Assembly: GCA_903862465.1 (NCBI GenBank) | Contig: CAIOYH010000038.1 | Span: forward strand, 1-42,272 | Length of the DNA: 42,272 nucleotides | Direction of reading: 5' to 3' | Source: an uncultured bacterium | GTDB lineage: Bacteria; Bacteroidota; Bacteroidia; Bacteroidales; CAIWKO01 | Shown: one piece after another, positions 253-29,489 of the stretch | How the letters are laid out: the number at the start of each line of letters is the position of its first letter | Numbering within the stretch: position 1 is the first letter of the stretch | Program-made: the position numbers and the translations under genes | Notes under the pieces: generated by a model | Told to the model about the DNA's origin: nothing | Database searches by the model: none | Seen by the model: the letters and a program-made list of their open reading frames with translations, nothing else

Positions 253-262
253 GTTAGCGGTA
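253..262 (+). other. Integron R'-type box opening gene cassette 1
   Basis: GTTAGCGGTA is the exact reverse complement of TACCGCTAAC at 1226-1235, which flanks the same gene on its other side. In an inserted integron cassette, the first bases (TTRRRY, after the G) are complementary to the R'' box of the cassette's own attC site, as here. The left arm of any preceding attC is not recognisable. Confidence 0.6.
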
Positions 263-338
263 ATTCATAAGGTCGTGAAATACTCGGACAAAAATTAATT
301 TAAGATTATAACGTGAAAGCTTTTAATTGATAATATCG

Positions 339-1160
339 ATGAACAATAATAAAACATTTTTTTTAATCCTACTTCTACTCTGTACATCCTTACAATCCAT
401 GTCTCAAAAGTCTTCAAGAGATTACTATAATTTAGCTGTAAAACAAACTGATTCTATGATGTATTCTAAGGCAATTGAGAATTATTCTAAGGCAATTGAA
501 TTGAATCAGGTGTTTCATGAGGCTTATTTTAGTCTAGGGTATACCTATAAATTAGTTGGAAAATATGATTTGGCAATTCAAAATTACAGCGATGCAATAC
601 GTATTCAGCCAAGTTCATTGTACTATTATAATAGGGCTAGTGCATATTCAATGATTTATAATTATAGTCTTGCAATCAGGGACTGTGATAGTGTATTGAA
701 ACTTCAGCCAGAGAATATTGAAACACTTATATTAAGAGCACAATTATTTGATCAACTTAATCAAGACTTAGATGCGATAAGTGACTATAAAAAAGTCATG
801 AAACTTGGTTTCAATCCTCCAAAACTGTATTATGACATAGGGAGAATCTATGAAAGTATCAATCAACAAGATAGCGCTCTTGTATATTACAATTTGGATA
901 TTTTAAAAGATACTTCAGAAAGTTATTCTCATATAAGAATTGCTGAAATTTACGAAACTAGAAGCGATTTTAATAAAGCATTATCAGTTTACAATCAGTG
1001 CATTCTAAAATTTCCATCATATAACTATGCATATTACAAAAGGGGGTTTATTAAAATTCATTATTTATCTGATAAAAAAGATGGCTGTTCAGATATGAGC
1101 GAAGCGTATAGACTAGGTTTTGAGGCAGCTAAATTAGAAATAGAAGCACATTGTGAATAG
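339..1160 (+). CDS. Secreted tetratricopeptide-repeat protein in an integron-type cassette
   Basis: This 273-residue protein starts at ATG 339, where a basic and hydrophobic signal peptide begins (MNNNKTFFLI...). The in-frame TTG at 327 is less likely. No proper lipobox is seen, so export by Sec to the periplasm is expected. Most of the mature part is TPR-like repeats, with motifs such as AIENYSKAIELN, AIQNYSDAIRIQP and AIRDCDSVLKLQP. These suggest a protein-interaction scaffold; the partner is unknown. The gene lies alone between complementary boxes (253-262 and 1226-1235) and ends 68 bp before an attC-like site, so it reads as a cassette passenger. It is much more AT-rich than the glycosyltransferase genes that follow, which fits acquisition by transfer. 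Confidence 0.8.
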   Translation: MNNNKTFFLILLLLCTSLQSMSQKSSRDYYNLAVKQTDSMMYSKAIENYSKAIELNQVFHEAYFSLGYTYKLVGKYDLAIQNYSDAIRIQPSSLYYYNRASAYSMIYNYSLAIRDCDSVLKLQPENIETLILRAQLFDQLNQDLDAISDYKKVMKLGFNPPKLYYDIGRIYESINQQDSALVYYNLDILKDTSESYSHIRIAEIYETRSDFNKALSVYNQCILKFPSYNYAYYKRGFIKIHYLSDKKDGCSDMSEAYRLGFEAAKLEIEAHCE

Positions 1161-1225
1161 AGTTTACCAAACAATTAATAATAAAAGTAAAAATCATAAT
1201 AGCAGATGATTAAAAATATTTTAAC

Positions 1226-1362
1226 TACCGCTAACAAGGCCTTTGCATCAGTCGGTTGCAGGAAAAATAGTAAACGAATGGAAAATTAATTAATTTTATG
1301 GTCGGGGTGAGAAGGGCAGGAAGTTTAAAACCCGGCCGATGCAAAGCCCCAAACCGTTATCT
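1226..1362 (+). repeat. attC-like recombination site of cassette 1
   Basis: The site opens with TACCGCTAAC and closes with GTTATCT at 1356-1362. Inside, GGCCTTTGCATC (1238-1249) pairs with GATGCAAAGCC (1338-1348), and GTCGG (1251-1255) pairs imperfectly with the CCGGCCGAT side. The distance between box and stem differs on the two arms, the asymmetry typical of attC hairpins. The length of about 135 bp is within the known attC range. It lies just downstream of the TPR gene, as a cassette's own attC should. Confidence 0.6.
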
Positions 1363-27849: not shown

Positions 27850-28143
27850 AGTCCCGTCTTAAGAAATATTGAATCCGACTTATGAGATATTCAATCCGAC
27901 TTATGAAATATTGAATCCGACTTATGAAATATTGAATCCGACTTATGAAATATTCAATCCGACTTATGAGATATTCAATCCGACTTATGAAATATTGAAT
28001 CCGACTTATGAAATATTCAATCCGACTTATGAAATATTGAATCCGACTTATGAAATATTGAATCCGACTTATGAAATATTCAATCCGACATAAGAAATAT
28101 TCAATCCGACATAAGAAATATTCAATCCGACTTAAGAGATATT
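27850..28143. repeat. Tandem array C: 13 clear units of 21 bp and one degenerate unit
   Basis: Consensus SAATCCGACTTATGAAATAT plus T (S = G or C), with exact 21-bp spacing over 14 units and no indels. Units vary mainly at position 1 (G/C), position 16 (A/G) and, in the last three, TTAT becomes ATAA or TTAA. In one plus-strand frame a unit reads NPTYEI plus L or F, open for 74 codons, but neither end has gene-like context. The gene-free span 27725-28338 also includes a promoter at 28245 and a stub frame at 28264. Confidence 0.95.
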
Positions 28144-28314: not shown

Positions 28315-28323
28315 GTTATACCC
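28315..28323 (+). other. Integron R'-type box opening cassette 2
   Basis: GTTATACCC is complementary to GGGCATAAC at 28859-28867 except for one base. This is the relation expected between the first bases of an inserted cassette and the R'' box of its own attC. Confidence 0.6.
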
Positions 28324-28338
28324 AATGTTTAGAAGAAT

Positions 28339-28866
28339 ATGAATAAGCCATTAAACTGTCCACCCATTTCAGGACAATATGAAGAAATAATCTTTGACCT
28401 TGCAGATCTTTGGCATGGACAAAATTGGCATTATGTTTTATTCACAACATCAGATGGAAATGAATGGTGCGGACATTTCAGAGAAAAAGACAGCAACAAT
28501 TTTTTATTAGCAGAATTGACGGACAAAAATATTGCTTGCATTGTTTCGGGCGGACACGGTTACATTATTGACATTGACAAAAAAGAAAAAATAAAGGAAC
28601 TAGACAGGAATATGATTACTTCTCTCGCTTCGGACAATCTTTCTTCTTCCTTTATCATTTCTACTTATTTGGGCATTTATCGAATTGACAATAACTATAA
28701 CCTGACTGAAATTAATTTACCGATACAGGTTGATGGGATTTACTTCATTGATACCATTGACCAAAAACTATTGCTTGACATTGAAGAAATCGGAGCAGAC
28801 ATGAAACATAATAAGGATTATTACATTGACTTAAACGATTGGAATATAAAAAAACACAGGGCATAA
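28339..28866 (+). CDS. Cassette 2 protein of unknown function
   Basis: I do not recognise this 175-residue protein. It is acidic, apparently soluble and without signal peptide. It has repeated short strand motifs (HYVLFTTSDGNEWCGHF, NIACIVSGGHGYIIDI, SSSFIISTYLGIYRID) that suggest a small beta-propeller-like or immunity-type fold; this is a guess. The stop codon lies inside the attC R'' box (28859-28867), so the gene fills the cassette completely, as integron passengers usually do. Its codons are markedly AT-rich. Cassette genes of this size often encode toxin-antitoxin parts, phage defence or unknown adaptive functions. Confidence 0.65.
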   Translation: MNKPLNCPPISGQYEEIIFDLADLWHGQNWHYVLFTTSDGNEWCGHFREKDSNNFLLAELTDKNIACIVSGGHGYIIDIDKKEKIKELDRNMITSLASDNLSSSFIISTYLGIYRIDNNYNLTEINLPIQVDGIYFIDTIDQKLLLDIEEIGADMKHNKDYYIDLNDWNIKKHRA

Positions 28867-28956
28867 CAGGCTTCTGCTTTCAGTGGCAGACAGTTTGTAA
28901 ATTAAAGACAATTAACTCCAATGCCACCGAAAAGCAACAGCCGAAACGTTATGGGC
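28859..28956 (+). repeat. attC-like site between cassettes 2 and 3
   Basis: The site starts GGGCATAAC and ends GTTATGGGC (28948-28956). GGCTTCTGCTTTCAGTGGCA (28869-28888) pairs imperfectly with TGCCACCGAAAAGCAACAGCC (28922-28942), and a CGAAAC spacer is present on the right arm only. That asymmetry, the terminal boxes and the 98-bp length all agree with known attC geometry. Confidence 0.75.
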
Positions 28957-28963
28957 AAATTAG

Positions 28964-29488
28964 ATGAACATACAAGAAATTAATATTTGCTTAAAAATTG
29001 TAAAAAGGAAAATGCCCTTTTATTTTAAAATTATCATTGCATATTGGATAATTGGGCTAATTGCTGCTATGATAGTGCCTATTTTTGGATTTGAAAAACT
29101 ATCAGCAACATTTAGACTTATACTTGCTTTAGTATTTGGCACTTCGACAATTATTATGTGGTTTGGCGGAGCTGTTATAAAAAGATACATCGAAATAGGA
29201 CATTTTGAATTGACAAATGATGAATTGAATGTTTTTGAAAACGACAATTGTGAAATTTTCAAATTATCAGAATTAGAAATTATTAGGTTTACAGTATCAT
29301 GCGAACAAGGAGAGCCAATTGGACGTGTAGCAATAAGTGAAGGTATTGACAATGATTTATATTTTAAAAAAGATGACAAAATTTTTAAGTATAATTTTCT
29401 TGTTGAAGACCTAAGTCAAGTTAACTATTTAAGAAGAAAAATAGCATACTTGAAAGAAAAAGGATTTAAAATAACAATCAGCCCATAA
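28964..29488 (+). CDS. Cassette 3 membrane protein with two TM helices and a PH-like soluble part
   Basis: This 174-residue protein starts 7 bp past the preceding attC. Two transmembrane helices lie at about residues 20-43 (KIIIAYWIIGLIAAMIVPIFGF) and 50-70 (LILALVFGTSTIIMWFGG). The rest is a cytosolic beta-rich part, GHFELTNDELNVFENDNCE and so on, of the kind seen in small bacterial PH-domain proteins. The name is tentative and the function unknown. The stop codon falls inside the R'' box GCCCATAAC (29481-29489). That box is the exact reverse complement of the cassette's opening GTTATGGGC, which makes this the best-defined of the three cassettes. Confidence 0.68.
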   Translation: MNIQEINICLKIVKRKMPFYFKIIIAYWIIGLIAAMIVPIFGFEKLSATFRLILALVFGTSTIIMWFGGAVIKRYIEIGHFELTNDELNVFENDNCEIFKLSELEIIRFTVSCEQGEPIGRVAISEGIDNDLYFKKDDKIFKYNFLVEDLSQVNYLRRKIAYLKEKGFKITISP

Positions 29489-29489
29489 C
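29481..29489 (+). other. R''-type box at the end of cassette 3; its attC is truncated
   Basis: GCCCATAAC is the exact reverse complement of GTTATGGGC (28948-28956). The bases after it (TTGCCCTTCCCCCTTTCGG) look like a left arm, but no complementary right arm or closing GTTA box is found before the next gene at 29610. The site appears decayed. Confidence 0.55.

Follow-up and report, generated by a model that had tools for sequence, protein, structure and literature searches.

Classical integrons, the closest described systems, bring together an integrase, an attI site and tandem cassettes of one orientation, with a G/TT crossover (/ marks the crossover position), an R″ box complementary to each cassette's own 5′ end and a covarying hairpin attC. 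Surveys identify their integrase, IntI, with a model based on its specific insert (PMC8352920), and IntegronFinder 2.0 reports a single complete integron in Bacteroidetes proper, that of Salinibacter ruber (PMC9024848). Here, we describe a TPR-protein gene in a 42,272-nt contig of an uncultured Bacteroidales bacterium (CAIOYH010000038.1, assembly GCA_903862465.1, lineage CAIWKO01; the whole stretch is hereafter called the window). Positions 254–1356 very probably form a cassette of a Bacteroidota integron system, inserted away from its platform. With an attI-like site, this system shares the classical features listed above. Unlike in classical integrons, its integrase, which we call C5-type after contig C5 of the same genome, lacks the IntI-specific insert, belongs to another clade, points toward the cassettes and in many members carries HARP-like N-terminal domains.

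The cassette at position 253 and its hairpin site

The features of this locus (cassette 1) are as follows.

254–1356, + strand: probable integrated gene cassette 1, a 1,103-bp block with one gene, limits G253/T254 to G1356/T1357; its own ends match, and it is missing from the orthologous right flank of genomes G003 and G001
253–262, + strand: R′ half-site at the 5′ end of cassette 1, GTTAGCGGTA, with AAATATAAACTA directly before it
339–1160, + strand: cassette 1 gene, a 273-aa TPR protein (Pfam TPR_1, E 3e-27, and sequence), likely exported given its signal-like N-terminus
1225–1362, + strand: attC-type site, with R″ at 1226–1235, L″ at about 1238–1248, loop, L′ at about 1339–1349 and R′ GTTA at 1356–1359 from the flank; R1 169 bits, R2 117.5 bits (E 2e-24 in its own genome), and covariation (models below)
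137–210, + strand: promoter-like leader 5′ of cassette 1, TTTG...TAATTTTG, with blastn matches before the array in G001 C68 and at several G003 loci

The cassette begins G/TTAGCGGTA. The two 10-mers on which the original prediction of an integron cassette was built, GTTAGCGGTA (253–262) and TACCGCTAAC (1226–1235), are indeed exact reverse complements (10/10), and the attC-like hairpin that it placed 3′ of the gene does have asymmetric arms, with unequal spacers (TAAC-AA-GGCCTTTGCATC ... GATGCAAAGCCCC-AAACC-G/TTA, where R″ is TACCGCTAAC) and arms that covary across 27 sites. In contrast to classical sites, this attC has a 2-nt 5′ spacer, a 3′ spacer of about 6 nt and a loop of about 80 nt. Complementarity between R″ and the first bases of the same cassette is expected if the site is whole in a circular cassette and is split upon insertion. 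A 10-bp inverted repeat within 1 kb is not rare by chance, and by folding energy alone the hairpin is unremarkable (z -1.5 and -1.2); what sets it beyond chance is its comparison with related sites, not its folding energy.

Three further loci of the genus carry the same hairpin with 83–92% identity, 3′ of different genes that encode 208 aa (G003 C223), 329 aa (G003 C119) and 265 aa (G001 C68). Every one of these genes has a matching 5′ end of its own, and at G001 C68, two cassettes stand in tandem. From window 1407 onward, the right flank of cassette 1 shares 90% identity with G003, where another gene precedes it, and in G001 the same ligase-like right-flank gene comes after a tRNA and glnS. 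Because this flank carries other sequence in place of cassette 1 in both genomes, the TPR gene is not a fixed core gene. Together with the matching ends, the differing flank supports the claim of a single integron-type cassette inserted among unrelated genes. The gene has no DNA match in three sister genomes, and a plasmid search with its protein returned only unrelated TPR proteins.

All attC calls in this work rest on two covariance models of our own, R1, built from cassette 1 and the three same-genus sites, and R2, built from all 27 sites. R1 found 25 sites in 16/119 genomes of the order. Across the 27 sites, 76.7% of cells are paired (69.6% when shuffled), and the covariation score of 0.255 (0.150 when shuffled) is reached in 0/500 shuffles. 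Double changes occur at 9 of the 11 L-stem pairs, 95% of R-box cells are paired, and the AAC/GTT core is conserved. These are imperfect hairpins that keep AAC/GTT and whose arms are conserved through pairing rather than through letters. An extra C in L″, considered as the classical extrahelical base, was dropped from this description, as other sites do not share it.

Matches to R2 number 21 in the window's own genome and 17, 4 and 6 in three sister genomes; by this measure, the own genome holds about 20 attC sites, and the window accounts for two. Of 198 evenly drawn Bacteroidota genomes, 103 contain one or more R2 sites with an E-value of 1e-4 or lower, which stands in contrast to the single complete Bacteroidetes integron of IntegronFinder 2.0. 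Exact-pattern searches for the window's attC core returned only chance matches in the own genome, 59 relatives, 395 genomes of the phylum and a viral collection. Because attC is conserved in structure and not in letters, such searches are the wrong tool; our first idea, that the cassette 1 element is unique, was abandoned. Another genome of the same order (G015) has 82 R2 matches on many contigs, and may hold a very large cassette collection fragmented by assembly.

Such sites might instead be repeat elements, structured RNAs or transposon ends that lie 3′ of genes by chance and have no role in recombination. The loop is unusually conserved within the genus, the leader and trailer sequences are likewise repeats, and no Rfam family matches the cassette 1 hairpin, which leaves the RNA class open. 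Against this, the R″ of each copy fits the start of the gene block to which it belongs but not the starts of others, the genes between the ends differ, the arms change together as the AAC/GTT core stays, and arrays start at an integrase. We consider a chance element of this kind extremely improbable.

We take the leader at 137–210 to be a possible promoter, promoter-like leaders having been judged by eye. The wider leader (99–252) and the trailer (1384–1432) are repeats at other G003 and G001 loci, and at G003 C224 both surround an unrelated secreted-protein gene.

The platform on contig C5 and in relatives

No integrase lies within the 42-kb contig, and to this extent the cassette is, as had been predicted, far from any integrase. 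The same genome nonetheless carries a complete platform of integrase, putative attI and cassettes on contig C5, where the best match to the IntI model is a 450-aa tyrosine recombinase.

C5:21581–22933, same strand as the cassettes: C5 recombinase, read directly
C5:23039 (L027:8040), crossover: attI-like site, assigned by motif and position; an AT-rich stretch with AGTCCCAA ... TTGGGACT and TATAAAC/GTTATCGCC
C5 cassette 1, GTTATCGCC ... GGCGATAAC plus hairpin: histidine kinase and two response regulators
C5 cassette 2, GTTATCGCC ... GGCGATAAC: DNA methyltransferase and type II restriction enzyme (PADLOC REase_II, E 3e-113)
C5 cassette 3, GTTAGCGGT ... ACCGCTAAC: DuOB protein, two DUF488 proteins and a ParA-like ATPase

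All C5 cassettes are oriented like the recombinase, and the third is followed by GTTATGGGC and the contig end, giving an array of at least three. The cargo includes a restriction-modification system and other likely defense genes (cassettes at L027 10518–15486); the DUF488 genes resemble PADLOC candidate defense proteins.

The arrangement is not restricted to this genome. A query with the C5 recombinase returned 284 relatives in bacterial and archaeal genomes, of which 80 were kept with their flanks. At E < 0.01, R2 gave 44 matches in these 80 loci, all on the integrase strand, with 43 downstream (224 kb searched) and 1 upstream (555 kb), a downstream bias with a binomial p of 1.8e-22. Among 45 integrase-linked attCs, R″ matches the start of its own cassette at 9/9 positions in 31 and at 8/9 in 7; when R″ was exchanged between loci, a 9/9 match arose in 0.8%. 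The units of these arrays are G/TT-bounded cassettes with R″ complementary to their own 5′ ends. The first cassette mostly starts 60–240 bp past the integrase stop, at a recurring junction with the rough consensus TGCGtATATACAgAt/GTT, and often an inverted copy of TTGCGTATAT lies some tens of bases upstream. Integrase, attI (as judged by motif and position) and cassette array occur together in the own genome and in many relatives, including Algoriphagus, Spirosoma, Runella, Arcicella, Labilibaculum, some Fidelibacterota and other metagenome-assembled genomes. A second integrase subfamily, 47% identical, stands upstream of arrays in G001 C43 and G482 C21. Judged by their sequences, the cassettes are single genes or small operons with a 5′ G/TTR and a 3′ hairpin site whose R″ complements the 5′ end. 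Elsewhere in the own genome (C10; L243 about 2505), an attI-like junction, GTGCATATATACAA/GTTAGCC, accompanies a cassette with no integrase nearby and is possibly a copied attI.

By analogy with established integron biology, the C5-type recombinase would cut at G/TT, folded single-stranded attC would recombine with a double-stranded attI located 60–240 bp past the integrase's own stop codon, and cassettes would be released as circles. Occasional insertion into a G/TT elsewhere could then give rise to dispersed cassettes, as at 253 and 28315.

The C5-type recombinase could also be an Xer- or phage-type enzyme of the ordinary kind, for which the arrays serve as landing places and which does not move cassettes. 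Its best NCBIfam call, the XerA/integron model NF040815, is at the bare cut-off (220.8 of 220), XerC/D models score as well, and some family members are found on plasmids and in other phyla. The constant polarity and spacing, the attI-like site at the first cassette, and the perfect cassette ends from the first cassette onward argue against such an enzyme, and we regard it as very unlikely.

Dispersed sites such as those of the window resemble clusters of attC sites lacking integrases (CALIN), defined as at least two close sites without an integrase; the site at 1225 is single, the array at 28315 has one intact attC, and C52 of the own genome has four. One cassette of this four-attC array contains a SIR2-like gene, a possible defense gene (L118 1972–3048). 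Unlike for a CALIN, the own genome encodes an array-linked integrase, one that IntI searches miss. An isolated attC cluster without integrase, as initially proposed, is not supported as a full account, given the roughly 20 related attCs, the second array in the window and the C5 platform.

The cassettes might still derive from classical integrons as remnants (CALIN or single attC) and be moved in trans by a canonical IntI encoded elsewhere. CALINs are common in other clades and usable in trans (PMC9668308), and a canonical IntI scores over the cut-off in 2/119 genomes of the order. Both of these genes appear damaged, however, and the genomes that carry them have few sites, whereas many genera have a non-canonical integrase immediately before their arrays, together with an attI-like junction; we therefore find this origin very unlikely. 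The two genes, the sole canonical IntI genes among the 119 genomes, appear to have a changed C-terminus and an internal deletion, respectively (G010 C50, L116; G479 C95, L117).

The recombinase, IntI and tet(X)

The C5 integrase has the residues and fold of a tyrosine recombinase, with catalytic R306, K331, R398, H421 and Y430 invariant in 57/57 aligned members of its family. It shares with IntI (TIGR02249; 2A3V) this fold, the catalytic residues and a C-terminal SPLD-type ending. In contrast to IntI, the catalytic K and second R are 67–68 residues apart (27 members), compared with 109–110 in IntI1, IntI3 and the Bacteroidota IntI of G010, and 74–75 in XerC/XerD. The IntI-specific insert (~42 residues) is missing and appears as a gap in the alignment to 2A3V. 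Because of this absence, the standard IntI model overlooks the enzyme. The original prediction had proposed to look for an intI gene elsewhere in the genome; what is found is an array-linked integrase that, at 211.5 bits against a TIGR02249 cut-off of 265, is not a canonical IntI. Phylogenetically, IntI groups in a clade of its own (100/99), separate from the C5-type family, with long branches that leave the exact branching point uncertain.

In the predicted structure of the C5 integrase (mean predicted local distance difference test score 88.9), two small alpha/beta units precede the recombinase part. Its closest structure by Foldseek is IntI 2A3V, and by VIA-align (residues 172–433) XerA-type structures and 2A3V. 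The Pfam HARP family (PF07443) matches 20/57 members at E 0.05 or better, with a Spirosoma member reaching 31.3 (cut-off 25). HARP-like domains are of a type known for DNA fork binding. As the IntI insert is absent, hairpin recognition must work differently, and we speculate that the HARP-like N-terminal units may replace the recognition that the insert provides in classical integrons.

An integron-like subgroup of simple tyrosine recombinases has been described in a survey of these enzymes, and the C5-type family probably falls into it; in the accessible text, the insert is called "not fully conserved" but "essential for integron function", and insert-less members are not tied to attC arrays (PMC8138268). 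We found no published link between insert-less recombinases and attC arrays in a literature search that took in few subscription papers and no preprints. Because surveys define the integrase by its insert, they would class the platforms of an entire phylum as lacking an integrase or overlook them, and the missing insert may explain the near-absence of integrons reported from Bacteroidota. If the C5-type integrase works, recombination of folded attC is possible without the IntI insert.

The family extends to a known resistance element. Beside tet(X3), Acinetobacter plasmids carry a "xerD/TnpF" fragment that shares 64% identity with the catalytic half of the own integrase and, in the tree, nests within Bacteroidota integrases near Arcicella. 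On its 3′ side stands an attI-like ...GGCGTATAGCCACTT/GTTATGTGCC, with tet(X3) next and then a truncated site, CGGCTACTAACAAGCAGTTTTGC, that scores 30.3 bits with R2. This ISCR2-xerD-tet(X3) element resembles the C5 platform in its succession of recombinase, attI-like site, gene and truncated attC, but differs in that the Acinetobacter xerD is truncated and carried by ISCR2 rather than by the integrase. The Myroides plasmid p63039 carries tet(X2) as a perfect cassette, GTTATGTGCC ... GGCACATAAC, whose attC is full (47 bits); another attC precedes it, so that attC sites stand on both sides. The tet(X2) and tet(X3) loci are L274 3600–5117 (NZ_CP104735.1), L275 6001–8236 (FJ012881.1) and L276 5780–7345 (NZ_CP013691.1). 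A link between tet(X) and xerD is already known and, in the accessible portions of those reports, is not termed an integron (PMC8635130, PMC11194056). The tet(X) family matters clinically, and its appearance as a cassette of a Bacteroidota system offers a concrete route out of Bacteroidota.

We consider it probable that Bacteroidota possess a separate, widespread class of integron whose insert-less, often HARP-fused recombinases recognize folded attC in a new way, that it accounts for most of the phylum's "integrase-less" cassette clusters, and that it originally captured tet(X), which is now spreading in Acinetobacter. Several points weigh against the assignment of cassette 1 to an integron system of the C5 type. 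The IntI-specific insert that the C5-type integrase lacks is reported to be necessary for IntI activity (PMC8352920, PMC8138268). Recombination by the C5-type integrase is something we infer from sequence. The HARP signal in the window genome's own integrase is weak, at 12.6 bits (cut-off 25). The R2 model was trained on sites of this order, and G002 and G003, both incomplete assemblies, have attCs and yielded no close integrase. Because the TPR cassette lies outside the C5 array and has no integrase beside position 253, we likewise infer its origin from the C5 platform.

The second array in the window

The other cassettes of the window lie 27 kb from the first, in an intergenic position 3′ of promoter-like sequence.

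28316–28948, + strand: cassette A, starting G/TTATACCC (GTTATACCC); gene at 28339–28866 (175 aa, no Pfam family); attC at 28857–28954 with R″ GGGCATAAC, R2 52.8 bits; ends match 8/9
28949–29489, + strand: cassette B, starting G/TTATGGGC (GTTATGGGC); gene at 28964–29488 (174 aa); R″ GCCCATAAC at 29481–29489; exact end match

No hairpin follows the R″ of cassette B, the remainder of its attC having been lost. Just 5′ of this second array, window 27854–28143 consists of 13.8 copies of a 21-bp tandem repeat, and other loci of the genus (for example L069, L071 and L066) have different short repeats 5′ of their leaders.
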